A DNA stretch of 34,613 bases from Nocardioidaceae bacterium (GTDB lineage: Bacteria > Actinomycetota > Actinomycetes > Propionibacteriales > Nocardioidaceae): the NCBI GenBank assembly GCA_025934895.1, contig JAICWH010000027.1, forward strand, positions 1 through 34,613, in the 5' to 3' direction. The notes below the pieces were generated by a model that did not search any database, was not told where the DNA came from, and saw only the letters and a list, made by a program, of their open reading frames with translations. Both the position numbers and the translations under genes were made by a program. Shown piece after piece: positions 9,782-30,593 of the stretch. The number at the start of each line of letters is the position of its first letter. Positions within the stretch are counted from its first letter, which is position 1.

Positions 9782-10060
9782 TCACCCCTGGGTGTGCAGG
9801 CTCATCGGCCCGTAGACCTCCCGGTCCGCCTCGAACAGCGTCACCTGGTCGACGCCGTCCTCGAGGAGGTCCTGCCAGACCTCACCGACCCAGGACTCGG
9901 CGTCGCTCTGGGAGGGGAAGCTGCCGATCCCTCCGGTCGCGCCGTCCTCGGGCAGCTGGACCTCGGCTCCCGACGCGTCCTCGAAACGCCACCGCCAGGT
10001 CGCCTTCACCACCGGCTCGCTGGCGCTGAAGGACGAGGATGGCTCGAGAGAGTTCGTCAT
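9782..10060 (-). CDS. Conserved small hypothetical protein (92 aa)
   Basis: 92 residues with no signal or membrane segment. It is acidic and Trp-rich, with a compact alpha/beta look: WRWRFEDASGAEV, then FPSQSDAESWVGEVWQDLLEDGVDQVTLFEADREVYGPMSL. I recall similar small proteins across actinobacteria but know no function. A TAGGCT -10 ends six bases before the ATG, which supports it as a real, leaderless gene. It is divergent from the cobalamin riboswitch operon. Confidence 0.7.
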   Translation of the reverse strand: MTNSLEPSSSFSASEPVVKATWRWRFEDASGAEVQLPEDGATGGIGSFPSQSDAESWVGEVWQDLLEDGVDQVTLFEADREVYGPMSLHTQG

Positions 10061-10104: not shown

Positions 10105-10280
10105 TCGAGCCCCGCTTTGACGCCGCCCGAAGCGCGTGGGACCGTGTTGCTCATCTGTCCCACGTCGGGAAAGCCGGACCCCAGCCGGCGCTGACCCGCA
10201 GCCGTAGGCCGAGCACCTCGGGCGCCCCTCCAGCGTCCGTCGGGCCGGCGAGCCGGATGACCGGCGGAGACAGCGGCTCC
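10105..10280 (+). promoter_or_regulatory. Cobalamin riboswitch (B12 aptamer)
   Basis: This untranslated region of 325 bp (10061-10385) holds a recognisable adenosylcobalamin/cobalamin aptamer. The core GGGAAAGCCGG (10167-10177) is followed by CCGGCGCTGACCCGCAGCCGTA (10185-10206), the conserved L5/P6 region. The 3' B12 box GAGCCGGATGACCGGCGG lies at 10250-10267. A CCGCC near 10122 can pair with GGCGG at about 10263 to close P1. An upstream stem GTGGGAC/GTCCCAC is at about 10136-10163. It leads six genes for corrinoid uptake and salvage, so cobalamin should repress them. Ends are approximate. Confidence 0.9.
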
Positions 10281-10313
10281 ACATCCACCGTCGAGGAACG
10301 CGGGGACGGAGCC

Positions 10314-10347
10314 GGACCAGCACCCCTGCCAGGGGTGCCGGCGGTCC
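10314..10347 (+). promoter_or_regulatory. Hairpin in the riboswitch expression platform
   Basis: GCACCCCT (10320-10327) and AGGGGTGC (10331-10338) form a perfect 8-bp stem with a 3-base loop, extended by GGACC (10314-10318) and GGTCC (10343-10347). It lies between the aptamer and the ribosome site (AGAGAAAGG, about 10371-10379). There is no U tract, so it might be a sequestering or anti-sequestering helix or a Rho-linked structure. Confidence 0.55.
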
Positions 10348-10385
10348 GGCGCTGGCCTGTGCACCGCCGCAGAGAAAGGCCCCTG

Positions 10386-11102
10386 ATGGCCCTCGCTCAC
10401 CGCCGCACCCAGCGAGCGCTCGCCCTGCTCGCCGCCGGGCTGCTGACCACCCTGCTGCTGGTCGCCGGGGCCGGTACGGCGGACGCGGCCGACGGCTACC
10501 GCTACTGGAACTACTTCCACGTCGTCGGCGGCACGTACGTGTTCGCGCAGACCGGTCCCGGCTCCTACAAGCCCAAGGACGGTGCCGTGGAGGCCTTCCG
10601 ATACGGCCTCTCCACCGCCGCGGACGGCATCAAGCCCCGCACGCCGGCGACGACGTACCCGATCGAGGACATCTGCGGCACCCGGAAGGCGCCGGCCGGA
10701 CAGAAGCGGGTCGGGGTGCTGATCGACTACGGCACCGCGCAGGACTCCGGCGGGAACGACACGCCGCCGAAGCCCCGCGCGGCGTGCGCGATCGTCCCGG
10801 CCGGAGCCACCGGGCAGCAGGTCCTGGAGAAGGTGGCCAAGGTGCGGGTCGAGAAGCAGCTGACCTGCGGCATCGACGGCTACCCGACAAGCGGCTGCTC
10901 GGTGACCGTCAAGAACGCCCCGCGCGTCGCACCGGAGAAGAGCGTGACGTTCTCCCTGCCGTCCCACGCCAAGGACGCCACGCCGGCCTCCTCCGGGTCG
11001 CCCAGCAGCGGCCTCTCCCTGCCGGCCGTCGGGGTCGGCGTCGCGGTCGTGGTCCTGGCGGTCGGGGCCTTCCTGCTCTCGCGCCGCAACCGGGACGCCT
11101 GA
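10386..11102 (+). CDS. SCO2322-like secreted, C-terminally membrane-anchored protein
   Basis: 238 residues from the ATG at 10386 (AGAGAAAGG upstream). A signal peptide (1 to about 34, ending ADA) is followed by an extracellular domain (about 35-195). It starts DGYRYWNYFHVVGGTYVF and has DGAVEAFRYG at 65-74. Four cysteines (97, 134, 161, 171) could make two disulfides. A Ser/Gly/Pro spacer (195-212) leads to a C-terminal membrane helix (213-232) and RRNRDA. I recall this family as SCO2322-like, found beside actinobacterial ECF transporters. It is the first gene of the B12-riboswitch operon, 18 bp before the T component. A role as an extracellular corrinoid-binding or docking accessory is inference; function is not established. 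Confidence 0.75.
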   Translation: MALAHRRTQRALALLAAGLLTTLLLVAGAGTADAADGYRYWNYFHVVGGTYVFAQTGPGSYKPKDGAVEAFRYGLSTAADGIKPRTPATTYPIEDICGTRKAPAGQKRVGVLIDYGTAQDSGGNDTPPKPRAACAIVPAGATGQQVLEKVAKVRVEKQLTCGIDGYPTSGCSVTVKNAPRVAPEKSVTFSLPSHAKDATPASSGSPSSGLSLPAVGVGVAVVVLAVGAFLLSRRNRDA

Positions 11103-11120
11103 GGCGACGGCCGCCCCCTC

Positions 11121-12260
11121 ATGCGCGCCGAGCACCTGGTCACCTATCCCCGCAACCTGCACCCGGGGGCGTGGTGGCTGTGGGCGGTCGCGCTCGCGGC
11201 GGCGGCCAGCCGCACGGCGAACCCGGTCCCGCTGCTGCTCATCCTCGTGGTCACCGCGTTCGTCGTCGCGGCGCGCCGGAGCAGCGCCCCCTGGGCGAGC
11301 TCCTACGTCGCGTTCCTCAAGCTGTCCCTGGTCGTCGTCGTGGTCCGGATCCTGTTGCAGGCGCTGCTCTCGACCGGCGCCCAGGGCCCCACGGTGCTGT
11401 TCACGCTGCCGGCCCTGCCGATGCCGGCGAACAGCGGCCTCAAGCTGGGCGGAGTGGTGAGCCTCGAGGCCGTGCTGCAGGCGCTCTACGAAGGCCTCCA
11501 GCTGGCCACCATCTTGTGCTGCGTCGGTGCTGCCAACGCGCTCGGCAGCGCCCGGCGGCTGCTGCGCTACGTGCCCGGCGCGCTGTACGAGATCGGCGTC
11601 GCCTGCGTCATCGCCCTCACCTTCGCCCCCCAGCTGGTCACCGACGCGGCCCGGGTCCGCGCCGCCCACCGGCTCCGTGGCCGCAACGGAGGCCTGGGCA
11701 GCTTGCGCCGACTGGCGATGCCTGTCCTCGAGGGGGCCCTCGAGCGGTCCGTGGACCTGGCAGCGGCGATGGACGCGCGCGGATACGGGCGTACGACGGA
11801 CGCCGACCGGGTCTCGCGGCGGGTCACCGCCCTGCTGGTCTTCGGGGGCCTGCTCGGCGTCTGCATCGGCGTCTACGGGCTGCTCGACGGTACCGCCTCG
11901 ACGTGGATGGGTGCACCGATGCTCGCCAGCGGGGTGGTCCTCGGCGCCGTGGGGCTGCACGTCGGGGGCCGCCGCACCGGCCGCACGAGGTACCGCCCCG
12001 ACCCGTGGGCTCTGCCCGAGTGGCTCGTCGCCGGCTCCGGGACGGTCGCCGCTGTGACCGTGTTCGTCGACGTGCACCTCTCCCCCGCGGACTTCGTGCT
12101 GGCCGGCGTGACCGACGCACCCCCGGTGCCGCTGCTGGCCTGCCTGGGGATCTTCGTCGGGCTGCTCCCTGCCCTGCTCGCTCCGCCACAGCCGGGCCCG
12201 GCCATCCCCCGCGGACCGACCGGCAGCCACCGCTCCGACCGGGTCGAGGTGGTCGCGTGA
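11121..12260 (+). CDS. ECF transporter T component (CbiQ/EcfT family)
   Basis: 379 residues with several membrane helices (about 18-50, 63-84, 118-142, 155-175, then more hydrophobic segments after 234). Between them lie the cytoplasmic coupling helices with the two EcfT signatures: VRAAHRLRG (179-187) and LAAAMDARGYG (213-223). These contact the two ATPases and transmit ATP hydrolysis to the S component. It is longer than most EcfT proteins (about 260), with extra helices at the C-terminus. It ends in a GTGA overlap with the ATPase gene. In this operon it is the shared membrane scaffold for corrinoid-related uptake. Confidence 0.9.
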   Translation: MRAEHLVTYPRNLHPGAWWLWAVALAAAASRTANPVPLLLILVVTAFVVAARRSSAPWASSYVAFLKLSLVVVVVRILLQALLSTGAQGPTVLFTLPALPMPANSGLKLGGVVSLEAVLQALYEGLQLATILCCVGAANALGSARRLLRYVPGALYEIGVACVIALTFAPQLVTDAARVRAAHRLRGRNGGLGSLRRLAMPVLEGALERSVDLAAAMDARGYGRTTDADRVSRRVTALLVFGGLLGVCIGVYGLLDGTASTWMGAPMLASGVVLGAVGLHVGGRRTGRTRYRPDPWALPEWLVAGSGTVAAVTVFVDVHLSPADFVLAGVTDAPPVPLLACLGIFVGLLPALLAPPQPGPAIPRGPTGSHRSDRVEVVA

Positions 12261-13903
12261 TCGAGATGCACGGGGTCGGGGTGACCTATGCGGACGCGGA
12301 TGCACCGGTGCTCTCCGGGGTCGACCTGGCGATCGGCGAGGGCGAGCTGGCCCTGGTCGTCGGCCGGACGGGGTCGGGGAAGAGCACGCTCCTGCGCACC
12401 CTCAACGGGCTCGTGCCGCACTTCTCGGGCGGCACGCTGCACGGCCGGGTCGTCGTCGACGGCCGCGACACCCGCACGCACCGCCCCCGCGACCTCGCCG
12501 ACGTGGTCGGCTACGTGGGACAGGACCCGCTCTCGGGGTTCGTGACCGATGCCGTCGAGGACGAGCTGGCCTACGGCATGGAGTCGCTGGGGCTGCCGGC
12601 TGACACGATGCGCAAGAGGGTCGAGGAGACGCTCGACCTGCTCGGGCTCGCCGAGGTCCGCGGCCGCCCCGTCGCCGACCTGTCCGCCGGCCAGCAGCAG
12701 CGGGTGGCGATCGGCGCGGTGCTCACCACCCATCCGCGGGTCCTGGTCCTCGACGAGCCGACGTCCGCGCTGGACCCGCTCGCCGCCGAGGAGGTGCTGG
12801 CCACCCTGCAGCGACTGGTGCACGACCTCGGGCTCACCGTCGTGCTCGCCGAGCACCGTCTCGAGCGCGTCGTGCAGTACGCCGACCGCGTCGTCCTGGT
12901 CCCCGGCGACGGCCGGCCGGTCGTGGACGGCACCCCGGTCGAGGTGCTCAGCGACTCCCCCGTCGCGCCGCCGGTGGTCGAGCTCGGCCGGGTCGCCGGC
13001 TGGCGTCCGGTGCCGCTCTCGGTCCGCGACGCCCGTCGACTGGCCGGCCCGCTGCGCAGCCGGCTCGCGCACGCCGACCCGTCGTCTCGACGCGCGAGGG
13101 AGGGCGCGAGGGAGGGCACGTCGGAGGGGCGGACCGTGGCAGCCTGCGCCGACCTGGTGGTGTCCTACCGGCGGGTGCCGGCCGTCCGAGGCGTCTCCGC
13201 GCGGTTGTCCGCCGGGAAGGTGGTGGCGCTGATGGGCCGCAACGGTGCCGGCAAGTCCACGCTGCTGAAGGCGCTCGTCGGGATGGTGAAGCCGGCCAGC
13301 GGGACGGTCGAGGTGGACGGCCTGGTCCCCTCGCGGCTGCGGCCCGGGGCGCTGCTGCGGCACGTCGCGATGGTGCCGCAGGTGCCCGCGGACCTGTTGT
13401 ACGCCCCCTCGGTGGGCCTCGAGTGCGAGCACGCGGACCGGGACGCCCGCGTCCGGCCCGGCACCACCCTGGCGGTGTTCCGGCGGCTGTCCCCGGCGGT
13501 GCCGCTCGAGCAGCACCCCCGGGACCTCTCGGAGGGACAGCGGCTCAGTCTGGCGCTGTCCATCGTGCTCGCCGCCCGGCCTCCGCTGCTGCTCCTCGAC
13601 GAGCCCACCCGCGGGCTCGACTACACGGCGAAGCACCGGCTGGTCGAGATCCTCAGGGACCTCGCCGAGCAGGGCCACGCCGTGCTGCTCGCCACCCACG
13701 ACGTCGAGCTGGTCGCGGAGGTGGCCGCCCGTGTGCTGGTGATGGCCGAGGGCGAGATCGTGGCCGACGGCCGCACGGCCGATGTCGTGGTGTCCTCCCC
13801 GGCGTTCGCCCCGCAGGTCGCAAAGGTGCTCGCCCCCCAGCACTGGCTGACCCCGACCGAGGTCGCGCTCGCGCTGGCCGACACCTCGGCGGTGACCCCG
13901 TGA
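12257..13903 (+). CDS. ECF transporter ATPase, two ABC domains fused (A1-A2)
   Basis: 548 residues from a GTG overlapping the T-component stop. The open frame runs far upstream, but that part is antisense-like shadow. Domain 1 has Walker A GRTGSGKS (36-43), signature LSAGQ (142-146) and Walker B VLVLDEP (161-167). Domain 2 has GRNGAGKS (327-334), LSEGQ (424-428) and LLLLDEP (about 444-450). Both sites look intact. The linker (about 270-295) is Arg/Glu/Gly-rich and repetitive. It powers the ECF transporter from the cytoplasmic side. Fusion of EcfA1 and EcfA2 is common in actinobacteria. It ends in a GTGA overlap with the S component. Confidence 0.95.
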   Translation: MIEMHGVGVTYADADAPVLSGVDLAIGEGELALVVGRTGSGKSTLLRTLNGLVPHFSGGTLHGRVVVDGRDTRTHRPRDLADVVGYVGQDPLSGFVTDAVEDELAYGMESLGLPADTMRKRVEETLDLLGLAEVRGRPVADLSAGQQQRVAIGAVLTTHPRVLVLDEPTSALDPLAAEEVLATLQRLVHDLGLTVVLAEHRLERVVQYADRVVLVPGDGRPVVDGTPVEVLSDSPVAPPVVELGRVAGWRPVPLSVRDARRLAGPLRSRLAHADPSSRRAREGAREGTSEGRTVAACADLVVSYRRVPAVRGVSARLSAGKVVALMGRNGAGKSTLLKALVGMVKPASGTVEVDGLVPSRLRPGALLRHVAMVPQVPADLLYAPSVGLECEHADRDARVRPGTTLAVFRRLSPAVPLEQHPRDLSEGQRLSLALSIVLAARPPLLLLDEPTRGLDYTAKHRLVEILRDLAEQGHAVLLATHDVELVAEVAARVLVMAEGEIVADGRTADVVVSSPAFAPQVAKVLAPQHWLTPTEVALALADTSAVTP

Positions 13904-14751
13904 GGGGGCTTCCGCCCGGCCAGGTCGACGCCGCGCACCTGGTGCCGGTCCGGCTCCGCTCCGGGCTGGCCCTCACCGCGGCGTTCGCGGTAGGGGTCGT
14001 CGCGTTCGGCTGGCCGTTCCTCGTGCGGCCCGGCGCGGCGCTGGACACCTCGCACTCCGGTGACGCTCCCCTGGTCTTCGTGCTCATCCTCCCGCTGCTG
14101 GCCGCCGTGGTGCTCGCCGAGCTGACCGCCGGCGGGATGGACGCCAAGGCGGTCGCCATGCTCGGCATGCTGACCGCGGTCGGAGGAGCGCTGCGCGCCC
14201 TCGGACCGGGGACCGCCGGCCTGGAGCCCAGCTTCGCGGTCATCATCGTGGGCGGCCGGGTCTTCGGCCGCGGATTCGGCTTCGTGCTGGGCGCGCTGAC
14301 CCTGTTCACCGGTGCCCTGCTCACCGGAGGCGTGGGCCCCTGGCTCCCGTTCCAGATGGTGGCGGCCGGCTGGGTCGGCTTCTTCGCCGGCTGCCTGCCA
14401 GCCTCTCGCGGGCGGCTCGAGGTGCTCTGCCTGGCCGCCTACGCGTTCGTGGTCGGGCTGGTCTACGGGATGGTGATGAACCTGTGGTTCTGGCCGTTCG
14501 CGTCCTACGGACCCGAGACGTCGTTCGTGGCCGGTGACCCGTTCGGTGCCAACCTGTCCCGCTACGCGCTGTTCTACCTCACCACGTCCCTGCCCTGGGA
14601 CCTCGGGCGGTCGGTGCTCTCGGCCCTGGTGCTGTTGCTGGCCGGGCGCGCTCTGCTGCGGGCGCTGCGGCGGGCCGCGAGGCGGGCGGCGTTCGACGCG
14701 GTGGCCGTCTTCGAGGAGCCGCCCGGAGAGCCGTGGGTGGGCACCCGGTGA
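13900..14751 (+). CDS. ECF transporter S component, predicted corrinoid-related substrate
   Basis: 283 residues, about six membrane helices, starting at a GTG inside the ATPase stop. The glycine-rich stretch VFGRGFGFVLGALTLFTGALLTGGVGPWLPFQMVAAGW is typical of ECF substrate-binding subunits of the vitamin-transport superfamily. Substrate is not readable from sequence. The B12 riboswitch and the neighbouring CobU and CobS suggest cobalamin, cobinamide or alpha-ribazole (CbrT/CblT-like roles). The C-terminus is a basic helix then an acidic tail. It is followed by the MBL-CobU gene in another GTGA overlap. Confidence 0.85.
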   Translation: MRGLPPGQVDAAHLVPVRLRSGLALTAAFAVGVVAFGWPFLVRPGAALDTSHSGDAPLVFVLILPLLAAVVLAELTAGGMDAKAVAMLGMLTAVGGALRALGPGTAGLEPSFAVIIVGGRVFGRGFGFVLGALTLFTGALLTGGVGPWLPFQMVAAGWVGFFAGCLPASRGRLEVLCLAAYAFVVGLVYGMVMNLWFWPFASYGPETSFVAGDPFGANLSRYALFYLTTSLPWDLGRSVLSALVLLLAGRALLRALRRAARRAAFDAVAVFEEPPGEPWVGTR

Positions 14752-16088
14752 ACCTCACGGTCCTCGGCTCCGGGTCCGCGGACGGCTGGCCGAACCCGCA
14801 CTGCCGCTGCGCCTCCTGCGCTTCGGCTCGCACCTCCGGGACGCTGCGCGGGCAGACCGCCGCGCTGCTCGACGAGGTGCTGCTCCTGGACTGCGGGCCC
14901 GAGACGCCGCACGCGGCGCAACGGGCCGGCCTGGACCTCACGCGGCTGCGGCACGTGCTGGTCACCCACGCGCACCCCGACCACTGCGCCCCGGCCTTCC
15001 TGCTGTTCCGCTCCTGGGTCGACGGCAGCCCCCCGCTGGACGTCGTCGGCCCACCCGAGGTCCTCGAACAGGCCCGGATGTGGGTCGCCCCCGACTCGCC
15101 GGTCCGGTTCCGGGCGGTCACCGCCGGGGACCGCCTCACCCTCGGGGCGTACGACGTCCGGGTGCTCGGCGCGCTGCACGGGAAGCCCGGCGCGGGGGTG
15201 CTCTTCGACGTGACCGCACCCGCCGGGCGGCTGCTCTACGCCACTGACACCGGGCCGCTGCCCGACCCCACCGTCGAGGCCGTCCGCGGCGCGGGGTTCG
15301 ACGTGGTGCTGATGGAGGAGACCTTCGGGGACCACACCGGCCACGGCACCGACCACCTCGACCTGGTCACGTTCCCCGAGCAGCTGCGCCGACTCAGGGC
15401 GGTGGGCGCGGTCACGTCCGGCACCGACACGGTCGCCGTACATCTGTCGCACCACAACCCGGCGACCTCCGAGCTCTCCCGGCGGCTGGCACCCTGGGGT
15501 GCTCGGGTGGTGCCGGACGGGACGACGCTCGGTGCCCGACCCGCGCCGGTGCAGGCAGGCCGCACGCTCGTGGTCGGCGGCGCCCGCTCGGGCAAGTCCC
15601 GCGAGGCCGAGCGGCTGCTGGCGGCGGAGGCCGAGGTGACCTACGTGGCGACCGCCTACCCCGCACAGCACGACGACGAGTGGGCCGAGCGGGTGCGGCT
15701 GCACCGCTCCCGGCGACCGGCGCACTGGACGACGCTCGAGACGACCGACCTGCTGTCGCTGCTCGGCATCGACGGCGGCCCGCTGCTGGTGGACTGCCTG
15801 ACGCTGTGGCTGACCCGGGTGCTGGACGCGCACGACGCCTGGGACGACGCCACCTGGTCGGGCACCGGCGAGAAGGCCGTGCACGCCGAGATGGACGCGC
15901 TGGCCGCCGCGTGGCGCACCACCAGTCGCCGGGTCGTCGCCGTGACCAACGAGGTCGGCCAGGGCGTCGTGCCGGACAGCGCGGCCGGGCGACGGTTCCG
16001 CGACCTGATGGGCCGGCTCAACACGCGGCTGGCCGCCGAGACCGAGGACGTCAGGTGGTGCGTGGCCGGCCGGGTGATGGCGCTGTGA
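14748..16088 (+). CDS. cobU: Fusion: PhnP-like metallo-beta-lactamase domain + CobU (adenosylcobinamide kinase/guanylyltransferase)
   Basis: 446 residues. Residues 1 to about 262 are an MBL-fold hydrolase: GSGSADGWPNPHCRCASC carries Cys19, Cys21 and Cys24, like the structural zinc site of PhnP. The metal motif is HAHPDH (74-79), with His144, Asp167 (YATDTG) and the late VHLSHHNP (231-238). Residues about 270-446 are CobU: P-loop GGARSGKS (277-284) and the guanylylated His319 in HRSRRPAHW. CobU phosphorylates adenosylcobinamide and transfers GMP to give AdoCbi-GDP, the substrate of CobS. The MBL domain's substrate is unknown; a cyclic or mono-phosphodiester of the nucleotide loop is a guess. 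GTGA overlaps link it to both neighbours. Confidence 0.92.
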   Translation: MNLTVLGSGSADGWPNPHCRCASCASARTSGTLRGQTAALLDEVLLLDCGPETPHAAQRAGLDLTRLRHVLVTHAHPDHCAPAFLLFRSWVDGSPPLDVVGPPEVLEQARMWVAPDSPVRFRAVTAGDRLTLGAYDVRVLGALHGKPGAGVLFDVTAPAGRLLYATDTGPLPDPTVEAVRGAGFDVVLMEETFGDHTGHGTDHLDLVTFPEQLRRLRAVGAVTSGTDTVAVHLSHHNPATSELSRRLAPWGARVVPDGTTLGARPAPVQAGRTLVVGGARSGKSREAERLLAAEAEVTYVATAYPAQHDDEWAERVRLHRSRRPAHWTTLETTDLLSLLGIDGGPLLVDCLTLWLTRVLDAHDAWDDATWSGTGEKAVHAEMDALAAAWRTTSRRVVAVTNEVGQGVVPDSAAGRRFRDLMGRLNTRLAAETEDVRWCVAGRVMAL

Positions 16089-16876
16089 GGGACGCGTGGC
16101 GGCTGGCGCTCGGGACGCTCAGCGTGGCGCCCGTGCGGCCCCCCACGCAGGTGGACCGGCGCACGGCCGGCCGGGCGATGGTCCTGGCACCGGTGGTCGG
16201 CCTGCTGCTGGCCGCCGTGCTGGTCGGGCTGCTCTGGCTGTGCCGCGGCCTGCCACCGCTGCTGGCGGCGACGCTCGCCATCGCCCTGCTCACCGTGCTC
16301 ACGCGCGGAATCCATCTCGACGGCCTCGCCGACACCGCCGACGGACTCGGCTCCGGCAGGTCCCGCGACGAGGCGCTGCTGCTGATGCGCCGGGGCGACG
16401 TCGGCCCGTTCGGGGTCGTCACGCTCGTCCTGGTGGTGCTGCTCCAGGTGACCGCGCTGGCGGGGCTGCTGCCCGCCGGCCCCACCCCGCTGGTGCTGGC
16501 CCTGGTCACCAGCCGGCTCGCCCTGCCGCTGGTGTGCTCGAGCGGCATCCCGGCTGCCCGTCCCCAGGGGCTCGGCAGCACCGTCGCCGGCAGCGTGTCC
16601 CGAGCGGGGCTGCTGCTCGCCGTGCTGCTGGCGGCCGCGATCACGTCCGTGACCTGGCTGACGCAGGGGCTGGCGCTGCGGACCGGGCCCCACCCGGGTG
16701 CACCGGGCGGGCTCCCGACCGTCCTCGCGGTCGCCGTCCCCCTGCTGCTGGCGTGGCTGCTGGCGGTCCGGTGCGTGCGACGGCTCGGTGGCGTGACCGG
16801 GGACGTGCTGGGTGCCTGCGTCGAGGTCGCGTTCGCGGCCTCCCTGCTGGTGCTGACGGTGCTGTCCGGCCGCTGA
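16085..16876 (+). CDS. cobS: Adenosylcobinamide-GDP ribazoletransferase (cobalamin synthase)
   Basis: 263 residues, an integral membrane enzyme with several helices. The family signature HLDGLADTADGLG is at 77-89 and a downstream MRRGDVGPFGV is at 101-111. The C-terminal GGVTGDVLGACVE is the other conserved block. It joins AdoCbi-GDP with alpha-ribazole (or its phosphate) to give adenosylcobalamin (phosphate), the last major step of nucleotide-loop assembly. It starts at a GTG inside the cobU stop and closes the riboswitch operon. No cobT or cobC is in this window. Position next to DUF3043 and gcvT echoes Rv2208. Confidence 0.95.
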   Translation: MRDAWRLALGTLSVAPVRPPTQVDRRTAGRAMVLAPVVGLLLAAVLVGLLWLCRGLPPLLAATLAIALLTVLTRGIHLDGLADTADGLGSGRSRDEALLLMRRGDVGPFGVVTLVLVVLLQVTALAGLLPAGPTPLVLALVTSRLALPLVCSSGIPAARPQGLGSTVAGSVSRAGLLLAVLLAAAITSVTWLTQGLALRTGPHPGAPGGLPTVLAVAVPLLLAWLLAVRCVRRLGGVTGDVLGACVEVAFAASLLVLTVLSGR

Positions 16877-20274: not shown

Positions 20275-21651
20275 GTGGCGGACAGCTTCGACGTGGTGGT
20301 GCTGGGGGCGGGCAGCGGCGGCTACGCGTGCGCCCTGCGCGCCGCACAGCTCGGGCTCTCCGTCGCGCTCGTGGAGAAGGGGAGGCTCGGCGGCACCTGC
20401 CTGCACGTGGGATGCATCCCCACCAAGGCGCTGCTGCACGCGGCCGAGGTTGCGGACGCGGCACGGGACTCCGAGCAGTTCGGGGTCAACGCGACGTTCG
20501 AGAGCATCGACATGGGCGGGGTCAACAAGTACAAGGACGCCGTCGTCACCAAGCTGTTCAAGGGGTTGACCGGCCTGATCCGCGGCCGCGGCATCACCGT
20601 CGTCGAGGGCGACGGCAAGCTGGCAGGACCGCACACGGTCGAGGTCAACGGCCGCCGCTACGACGGTCGCTCGGTCGTCCTGGCCTCGGGCTCGTACTCC
20701 CGGTCGCTGCCCGGTCTCGAGGTCGACGGCCACCGGGTGATCACCTCGGAGCACGCGCTGGCCCTCGACCACGTGCCGGCGTCGGTCGTCGTGCTCGGCG
20801 GCGGCGTGATCGGCTGCGAGTTCGCCAGCGTCTGGCGCTCCTTCGGTGCCGAGGTGACGATCGTGGAGGCCCTCCCCCGGCTGGTCGCCGGCGAGGACGC
20901 GGCGGTCTCGCGGAGCCTCGAGCGCGCGTTCCGCAAGCGCGGGATCGGCCTGCGCGTCGGCACCTCGTTCGAGTCGGTCTCACCGGTGCAGGACGGGGTG
21001 CAGGTCAGCCTCAGCGGAGGCGACCCGGTCGACGCCGAGGTGCTGCTGGTCGCGGTCGGGCGCGGGCCCTCCACGGCGGGCCTCGGGCTCGAGGAGCAGG
21101 GGGTCGCGACGGAGCGGGGCTACCTGGTCACCGATGGGCGGCTGCGCACCAGCGTCGAGGGCGTCTACGCCGTCGGCGACATCGTGCCGGGTCTCCAGCT
21201 GGCGCACCGCGGGTTCGCGCAGGGCATCTTCGTCGCGGAGGAGATCGCCGGGCTCGACCCGGTGCCGATCGACGAGGCGGGCATCCCGCGGGTGACCTAC
21301 TGCGACCCCGAGATCGCGTCCGTCGGGCTGAGCGAGGCGGCGGCCCGGTCGACGTACGGCGAGAGTGAGGTGGAGTCCCTGACCTACGACCTCAGTGGCA
21401 ACGGCCGCAGCCAGATCCTGCGCACCCAGGGCTTCGTCAAGCTGGTGCGCCGCAGGGACGGGCCCGTCGTCGGCATCCACATCATCGGGGCCCGTGCCGG
21501 CGAGCTGGTCGGCGAGGCCCAGCTGACCATCGGGTGGCAGGCGTTCCCCGAGGACGTCGCACCGCTCGTGCACGCCCACCCCACCCAGACCGAGGCCCTC
21601 GGCGAGGCGCACCTGGCGCTCGCCGGAAAGCCGCTGCACGCCCACTCATAG
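20275..21651 (+). CDS. lpdA: Dihydrolipoyl dehydrogenase (E3)
   Basis: 458 residues from a GTG at 20275 with GGAGG seven to eight bases ahead; the open frame upstream (from 19861) is rejected. The FAD motif GAGSGGYACA is at 11-20 and the redox-active disulfide Cys42-Cys47 in GGTCLHVGCIPTK. The NAD motif is VLGGGVIGCEFA, and the C-terminal catalytic dyad His435/Glu440 lies in HAHPTQTE. It reoxidises dihydrolipoamide on E2 and on the glycine-cleavage H protein using NAD+. It stands 61 bp before the E2 gene and is probably expressed with it. It is a flavoprotein homodimer in the cytosol. Confidence 0.97.
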   Translation: MADSFDVVVLGAGSGGYACALRAAQLGLSVALVEKGRLGGTCLHVGCIPTKALLHAAEVADAARDSEQFGVNATFESIDMGGVNKYKDAVVTKLFKGLTGLIRGRGITVVEGDGKLAGPHTVEVNGRRYDGRSVVLASGSYSRSLPGLEVDGHRVITSEHALALDHVPASVVVLGGGVIGCEFASVWRSFGAEVTIVEALPRLVAGEDAAVSRSLERAFRKRGIGLRVGTSFESVSPVQDGVQVSLSGGDPVDAEVLLVAVGRGPSTAGLGLEEQGVATERGYLVTDGRLRTSVEGVYAVGDIVPGLQLAHRGFAQGIFVAEEIAGLDPVPIDEAGIPRVTYCDPEIASVGLSEAAARSTYGESEVESLTYDLSGNGRSQILRTQGFVKLVRRRDGPVVGIHIIGARAGELVGEAQLTIGWQAFPEDVAPLVHAHPTQTEALGEAHLALAGKPLHAHS

Positions 21652-30155: not shown

Positions 30156-30593
30156 CTAGACGCCGGTCTGGTTCGCGGCCTCGACGACGACGTCTTCCTC
30201 GGTCACCACGCCGTCGACGATCCTGTAGGACCTCAACTCCACCGGCCCGTCGCTATTCCCGTGCTCCCGTGTGCTGACCAGCACATAGTGCGCAAGCGGC
30301 TCCATGGCCAGGTTGACGTCGGTGCGGGACGGGTAGGCCTCGGTGGCCGTGTGTGAGTGGTAGACCACTACCGGCTCCTCGCCGCGGTCGTCCATCTCCC
30401 GGTAGAGCCGCAGCAGGTCGGTCGGGTCGAACTCGTAGAACGTCGGGGAGCTCGCCGCGTTCAGCATCGGCACGAAGCGCTCGGGGCGGTCGGACCCCTC
30501 CGGTCCAGCCACCACGCCGCATGCCTCGTCGGGGTGGTCCCGCTTCGCGTGCGCGACCATCGCGTCCACGACTTCCCGGGGGATCCTCAGCAC
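30156..30593 (-). CDS. mec: Mec metalloprotease (JAMM, releases cysteine from CysO)
   Basis: 145 residues from a GTG at 30593. The frame continues upstream to 30704 with a basic, unconserved stretch, so I use the shorter start, which matches the homologue's core. The JAMM motif is complete: Glu23 in DEACG, His79 and His81 in YHSHT, Ser89 and Asp92 in SRTD. It hydrolyses the CysO-cysteine adduct made by CysM and frees cysteine. It is the first gene of mec-cysO-cysM and lies 123 bp after DUF2017. Confidence 0.93.
   Translation of the reverse strand: MLRIPREVVDAMVAHAKRDHPDEACGVVAGPEGSDRPERFVPMLNAASSPTFYEFDPTDLLRLYREMDDRGEEPVVVYHSHTATEAYPSRTDVNLAMEPLAHYVLVSTREHGNSDGPVELRSYRIVDGVVTEEDVVVEAANQTGV

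Follow-up and report, generated by a model that had tools for sequence, protein, structure and literature searches.

A predicted circularly permuted transcobalamin-like beta domain heads a riboswitch-led corrinoid operon in a Nocardioidaceae bacterium

We analysed a 34,613-nucleotide stretch (the window) of contig JAICWH010000027.1 from a Nocardioidaceae bacterium (GCA_025934895.1), whose 3.9 Mb assembly comprises 247 contigs at 99.9% completeness. Here a cobalamin riboswitch is followed 3′ by six genes that encode a secreted membrane-anchored protein, an energy-coupling factor (ECF) T subunit, fused ECF ATPases, an ECF S component, a metallo-beta-lactamase (MBL)-CobU fusion and CobS. By comparison of the first-gene protein, the closest named relatives are Nocardioidaceae. 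The whole is likely a riboswitch-controlled unit of corrinoid uptake and salvage, its first product being a permuted, membrane-tethered transcobalamin-like beta domain that serves as surface corrinoid receptor for the ECF importer. Riboswitch homology, operon, family, predicted fold, neighbourhood and the permutation of both components, the beta domain and a toroid, were computed, and the searches of the window genome detected no toroid. The elements that carry this reading are as follows.

10143..10319, plus strand: cobalamin riboswitch, aptamer and conserved hairpin behind it (86 bits, E 2e-19, relatives' covariance model)
10386..11102, plus strand: SCO2322-family protein of 238 residues with signal peptide, predicted permuted transcobalamin-like beta domain and C-terminal membrane anchor (NF040672; AlphaFold2)
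10494..10673, plus strand: 'W half', residues 37-96, N-terminal here and C-terminal in unpermuted relatives (rotation scan)
10674..10904, plus strand: 'C half', residues 97-173 with cysteines 97, 134, 161 and 171, N-terminal in unpermuted relatives (rotation scan)
11019..11081, plus strand: C-terminal transmembrane anchor, residues ~212-232 (mean hydropathy up to 2.57 over 19 residues)

The first protein belongs to the NCBIfam family SCO2322_fam (NF040672), which carries no stated function. It scores 145 bits against a cut-off of 85, with residues 34-176 on positions 2-144 of the 144-position profile. This membership rules out an orphan gene, and it corrects a first-pass annotation of the same DNA that had called the protein uncharacterised in the sense of unclassified. 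The secretion-type N-terminus, four cysteines and C-terminal anchor listed by that annotation are all readable in the sequence, with the hydrophobic N-terminus at about residues 11-29 and RRNRDA following the C-terminal hydrophobic stretch. No sortase motif was seen on reading the protein's sequence.

The family profile matches in 54 of 396 sampled genomes of the phylum at E 0.001, in 13 of them over the cut-off. With the window protein as query, matches come from 19 of 30 genomes, its own included. A standing reference set for the neighbour, leader and toroid counts comprised 80 related loci with a SCO2322-type protein; L numbers denote loci, within this set or outside it. The four ectodomain cysteines are present in all 66 parsed relatives and invariant in their alignment A2, the remaining 14 of the 80 proteins, not parsed automatically, being outside both the alignment and the count.

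The permutation is seen against more distant homologues. Only sub-cut-off SCO2322_fam matches occur in 41 genomes, and the sequences from 17 of these (L015-L031) were read. All 17 have their halves in the opposite order to that of the 22-sequence permuted set. The unpermuted order runs from a VVxD-kind strand through a cysteine strand, a helix and a 'CxxxGxP..C'-like stretch to a 'YWxYW...W.Y...DGxVxGWxF'-like one. The SCO2322 order has the 'YWxYW...DGxVxGWxF'-like stretch first and then 'KRVxxxxDxG ... CxxxGYP..GC'. Several unpermuted sequences (families f9 and f15) close their W half with 'PPxxxxxVC'-like letters, matching the SCO2322 linker.

Profile-profile alignment (hhalign) of the permuted and unpermuted sets scores 104.4 over 64 columns in the natural order (E 1.2e-17) and 172.3 over 118-119 columns after rotation at the inter-half linker (E 8.5e-30). 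The rotation scan was sampled every third column here and every fifth or tenth in the DUF4430 and SCO2321 scans below. By these alignments, SCO2322 is a predicted circular permutant of the transcobalamin-type beta-grasp (SLBB/DUF4430) domain. A tree of the rotated permuted domains with the unpermuted ones needs two label changes; a single change suffices in 6% of 200 bootstrap trees. Because the f53 pair L015/L017 falls weakly among the permuted rows, the domain tree is compatible with one origin of the permutation as well as with more than one.

The strand order of the first protein differs from the native S1-S2-H-insert-S3-S4-S5, and on rotation the best cut is at the linker. The unpermuted family aligns in native order with 30 DUF4430 domains of the phylum (25.7, E 7.7e-4, 89 of 97 columns). 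When rotated SCO2322 is joined to that family, the score is 38.7 (probability 90, E 1.5e-6, 91 of 97 columns), against a mean of 11.2 and a maximum of 22 in 200 control shuffles of the columns. Rotated SCO2322 alone scores 25.7 over 73 columns, and its shuffles reach at most 23.9.

The AlphaFold2 model of residues 34-200 has a predicted local distance difference test score (pLDDT) of 94.5 and a predicted template modelling score of 0.90. Its elements are, in order, three strands, a helix, two strands, a helix, three strands and a helix. By the element list rather than the coordinates, strands 120-123 and 126-130 come after helix 110-117. The transcobalamin-type SLBB is described as having a beta-hairpin insert after the helix, with an aromatic residue that stacks on the B12 base (PMC1796856, PMC1949818).

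Among 117 chains re-aligned to the window model, 4zrp_B is the only one with Z of at least 2 (Z 2.5, root-mean-square deviation 3.3). The match has 60 residues at 17% identity and places model 70-140 (protein 103-173) on 4zrp_B 308-378. Entry 4zrp is transcobalamin-CD320, and a length of 399 is the basis for reading chain B as transcobalamin. The human transcobalamin beta-domain construct starts at Q307 and alone binds cyanocobalamin and cobinamide in crystals, and the alpha and beta domains assemble only with cobalamin (PMC5599065).

The riboswitch claimed in the first-pass annotation holds at 10143-10319 under a covariance model (R1) of 20 relatives' leaders, trained with the window left out. 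Its alignment omitted L110, where the motif lies inside the operon, and leaders that were redundant or hard to align; the E-values of the R1 search are rough. The check proposed with the Rfam model RF00174 succeeded only in position: on 601 bases it gives 17.5 bits at 10144-10283 (E 0.032) against a gathering threshold of 31.5, and an Rfam scan of the whole window at gathering thresholds has no match, RF00174 included. We accept this leader position as a cobalamin riboswitch despite the sub-gathering score because the relatives' model gives 86 bits.

Several relatives' leaders pass the RF00174 gathering threshold: L036 with 36.7 bits, L039 and L058 of the same genome with 32.4 each, and L060 of family f3 with 31.6. 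A Cobalamin match at E up to 0.05 is found in nine of the ten loci scanned (L032-L037, L039, L040 and L051) and not in L038. R1 matches directly ahead of the operon's first gene in 78 of the 80 loci, 20 of the 80 being the training set, and the weakest match is that of L157 (30.2 bits). The gene that follows the leader is SCO2322 in most loci and the toroid gene in Streptomyces loci. The Kribbella loci L101 and L108 have the operon with no R1 leader match at E 0.1. Kept changes on both sides are present in 11 of the 26 consensus pairs of the relatives' leaders.

Behind the aptamer, a hairpin at about 10275-10313, GGCTCC...CCGTCGAGG...GGAGCC in the window, is kept in most aligned leaders and is likely the expression platform. 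The next-best R1 matches in the window, 20537-20630 (17.6 bits, E 0.0037) and 30502-30584 (14.3 bits, E 0.024), are weaker and were taken as chance. A minus-strand frame of 92 residues at 9782-10060, which ends in EVYGPMSLHTQG, adjoins the riboswitch, and short frames like it lie near the operon in L042, L056 and L058. In L059, a single ECF locus is surrounded by two toroid genes and four matches to the cobalamin riboswitch.

The other operon features are these.

10373..10379, plus strand: AGAAAGG, likely ribosome binding site of the first gene (read from the sequence)
11121..12260, plus strand: ECF T subunit (Pfam CbiQ 29.2 bits, cut-off 25)
12257..13903, plus strand: fused ECF ATPases A1-A2 (Pfam ABC_tran, two stretches)
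13900..14751, plus strand: ECF S component (Pfam ECF_trnsprt 34.7 bits, cut-off 30.7)
14748..16088, plus strand: MBL-fold domain fused to CobU (Pfam Lactamase_B_2 62.3 bits, CobU 176.2 bits)
16085..16876, plus strand: CobS (Pfam CobS 152.2 bits)

Positions and products agree with the six-gene operon annotated at first pass, in which four GTGA overlaps (12257, 13900, 14748 and 16085) join the last five genes. The ECF module is complete within the operon, with T, A1, A2 and S encoded together (CbiQ, ABC_tran twice and ECF_trnsprt in Pfam). The NCBIfam models give A1-A2 296-300 bits, under the ECF ATPase cut-offs of 315 and 330, and MBL-CobU 158.7 bits with PRK05800, narrowly below its cut-off of 161; CobS is below the cut-offs of the cobS models. 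The S component has no PDB relative by sequence search at E 1.

CobU and CobS can finish imported cobinamide. The MBL domain ahead of CobU (14748-16088) is PhnP-like, its 53 bits with the PhnP model being far below the cut-off. The frame is of similar or larger size in several Nocardioidaceae loci and only 591-597 bases in Kribbella L101, L108, L119 and L122. A phosphodiesterase joined to CobU might open the nucleotide loop of cobamides for remodelling. Across the reference set, the T gene is present in 78 of 80 loci, and the contigs of L159 and L167 end within ~360 bases.

Some SCO2322 genes have a toroid partner. In 24 of the 80 loci, 23 from Streptomyces and one from Wenjunlia, the preceding gene matches the protein of L041, whose score with SCO2321_fam (NF053823, cut-off 300), another family with no stated function, is 592 bits. 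The remaining 56 loci, in some of which the upstream contig is short, yielded no toroid. The SCO2321_fam cut-off is reached in none of 30 genomes, the window's own included, and weak partial matches occur in 10 of them. The model of the SCO2321-like protein of L118 (pLDDT 92.1) is an alpha/alpha toroid with squalene-hopene cyclase as the closest structure (Z 23.6). PDB sequence searches with SCO2321 find terpene cyclases and prenyltransferases and do not find transcobalamin.

In terpene cyclases the DxDDTA site bears the catalytic aspartate. The site resembling it in alignment A3 (L118:8898-9902 with 22 other Streptomyces or Wenjunlia loci) reads D-S/T-N-x-T, the usual catalytic aspartate being replaced, and SCO2321 as an active terpene cyclase was rejected on this ground. 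The alpha domain of transcobalamin is likewise an alpha/alpha toroid (PMC1796856).

For neighbour reading we fetched 14 loci with an unpermuted beta domain. All 14 have T, A and S, and 11 have a toroid; the exceptions, with none detected, are the f44 loci L045, L046 and L055. SCO2321 aligned with ten toroids of unpermuted loci scores 172.8 (173 columns) in its natural order, and rotation with the cut at column 210 raises this to 257.9 (277 columns). On this alignment, the SCO2321-like toroid is a predicted circular permutant with respect to the toroids of other lineages. Neither the permuted domain nor the toroid partner, present in Streptomyces and other lineages and undetected in the window genome, had been raised in the first-pass annotation.

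Fusions also occur. L048 and L049 each have a single protein joining a toroid, one or more beta domains and CWB2 wall-binding repeats, with family scores below the curated cut-offs. That of L048 (4454-7279) has 942 residues, with the toroid, two tandem unpermuted beta domains and the cell-wall-binding repeats; a PDB sequence search with a stretch of it gave nothing useful. Tandem beta domains of this sort may be an intermediate on the way to permutation through duplication. The L054 toroid comes with S-layer repeats, and one L059 toroid has an LPXTG-anchor match just below the cut-off.

Several results weigh against a transcobalamin-like corrinoid receptor. In natural order, Pfam DUF4430 (PF14478) does not report the first protein at E 0.1, because of which we class it as a derived permutant and not a DUF4430 member. 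Pfam finds no DUF4430 in ten proteins from unpermuted loci either, nine of them beta-domain proteins. PDB profile searches return no transcobalamin with the unpermuted family, and with DUF4430 return transcobalamin-1 only at E 0.51, behind unrelated chains. Foldseek of the window model in the PDB has nothing at E 0.001, where a missing match does not prove different folds. In the structural comparison with transcobalamin, suggested at first pass, the 4zrp_B match is weak and confined to one half contiguous in both proteins. It fits a sequential aligner working on a permuted domain, or chance, and this model-based match counts only in combination with the other evidence. A profile of DUF4430 run over the window genome has no match at E 0.001.

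The toroid and the host add to these adverse points. Transcobalamin is not among the 50 structure matches listed for the L118 toroid, whose nearest solved relatives are terpene cyclases. Toroids are internally repetitive, and part of the SCO2321 rotation gain could stem from repeats. The window genome has no NF053823 match at E 0.001 and no A3 match at E 1, the A3 search having had no positive control. It has CbiC and seven B12-binding domain matches, so the host uses corrinoids and may make them itself. The permutation keeps Pfam from seeing the DUF4430/transcobalamin relationship, and ordinary fold searches probably miss it for the same reason. The evidence from profiles, structure and neighbourhood points to a surface corrinoid accessory of the transcobalamin/DUF4430 type, as the first-pass annotation had supposed.

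The first protein, at the outer face of the membrane, would most likely bind cobalamin or cobinamide within the wall space and hand it over to the neighbouring S component of the ECF importer. T and A1-A2 would drive the uptake, CobU and CobS would rebuild the nucleotide loop, and plentiful adenosylcobalamin would make the riboswitch turn the operon down. We infer the corrinoid binding, the hand-over to S and the B12 regulation, and the importer's corrinoid specificity would follow from the riboswitch, CobU and CobS. In Streptomyces, the permuted toroid SCO2321 probably closes over the corrinoid like the transcobalamin alpha domain; the window organism apparently manages with just the beta domain.

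A permuted SLBB need not bind corrinoids, and the first protein could instead anchor or stabilise the ECF complex or bind a nearby wall polymer. Polymer binding has been suggested for the SLBB relatives ComEA and polysaccharide export proteins (PMC1796856), S components bind substrate on their own (PMC5997447), and the toroid, source of much of the transcobalamin B12 pocket, is undetected in the window genome. We regard such a structural subunit as unlikely in view of the near-constant pairing with the cobalamin riboswitch (78 of 80) and ECF genes, and of the human beta domain that binds corrinoids alone (PMC5599065). The captured ligand could also be another, such as a cobalt complex or a lower-ligand precursor, with the ECF unit as cobalt or precursor importer. 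The T subunit being only CbiQ-type and the S component generic ECF_trnsprt, with no PDB relative at E 1, would suit this, as would the fact that genes for cobalt transporters can have a cobalamin riboswitch ahead of them too (cbiM in S. lividans, PMC8079986). The presence of CobU and CobS within the operon speaks rather for cobinamide salvage and the beta-domain kinship is with B12 carriers, which makes another ligand quite improbable.

The half-order swap itself might be convergent or an alignment artefact, SCO2322 then being an unrelated secreted protein. Taken singly, each set matches DUF4430 only modestly (25.7), and Pfam is silent. Yet the 118-column match (E ~1e-29) appears only after linker rotation (64 columns and E 1.2e-17 unrotated), and the permuted and unpermuted sets occupy the same operon type. 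We strongly disfavour an artefact and give it hardly any weight. The transcobalamin-like corrinoid receptor is the favoured reading.

A wider picture, to which we incline only slightly, is that Actinobacteria have a split and doubly permuted intrinsic-factor/transcobalamin system, with SCO2322 and SCO2321 at the surface feeding an ECF importer. In the window lineage the toroid would be gone, and the beta domain would be a minimal tethered corrinoid receptor, perhaps tuned to cobinamide. If this is true, ECF importers gain an extracellular capture stage, and both halves of the human B12 carriers become separable for study in a natural system. Such a stage would alter the usual view of the S component as the sole substrate contact.

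Under the favoured reading, two families from Streptomyces and its relatives that lack an assigned function become candidate B12 receptors, homologous with the carriers of humans, and this role can be tested. The naturally beta-only version poses the question of whether one domain is enough to feed an ECF importer. Corrinoid specificity could also be studied in this operon as a simple model.

The first-pass annotation regarded a surface accessory for B12 or cobinamide capture as new. For an ECF-type B12 importer the idea is not new: Burroughs et al. 2007 (PMC1796856) had predicted that SLBB proteins which are secreted or anchored to the wall, and which often carry an alpha/alpha toroid, act as B12 scavengers where they occur in CbiO/CbiQ operons. 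The words 'permut' and 'Streptomyces' are absent from the main text of that paper. A permuted beta-grasp is held by the E1 UFD domain, which is not SLBB (PMC1949818). Our literature search found no paper on SCO2322, and only a transdermal-peptide paper among the matches listed for SCO2321 and SCO2323-SCO2325. No title or abstract start among the matches listed describes a permuted SLBB, subscription literature being mostly outside the search. The accessible parts of PMC4991794 and PMC2667541 do not name the SCO2321/SCO2322 genes, and 'SCO232' is absent from the former. What appears new, with no earlier description found, is the sequence-based assignment of SCO2321/SCO2322 to the SLBB/toroid B12 system, the permutation of both, the split form and the beta-only operon.

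Transcobalamin, intrinsic factor and haptocorrin likewise have a beta-grasp beta domain and an alpha/alpha toroid and are secreted, and the bacterial relatives have these side by side or fused alpha-then-beta. In contrast, the window beta domain is predicted to be permuted, is membrane-anchored and has no detected toroid, whereas Streptomyces has two separate genes, both apparently permuted. The SLBB/DUF4430 and toroid proteins of Burroughs et al. share the surface location, the CbiO/CbiQ link and the proposed B12 scavenging, but their clade was placed in low-GC Gram-positives, planctomycetes, euryarchaea and animals (PMC1796856). As to the curated families, the window protein is over the SCO2322_fam (NF040672) cut-off, whereas the window genome is without a match to SCO2321_fam (NF053823) at E 0.001.

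Gut Bacteroides capture B12 with the surface lipoprotein BtuG, which has a beta-propeller fold. It is unlike the window protein in being a lipoprotein of the Gram-negative outer membrane, and like it in surface capture for an importer (PMC6143338). The characterised cobalamin and cobinamide importer ECF-CbrT of L. delbrueckii differs in consisting of S plus the ECF module, and 'accessory' and 'solute-binding protein' are absent from the main text describing it (PMC5997447). It resembles the window system in being an ECF importer set assigned to corrinoids.

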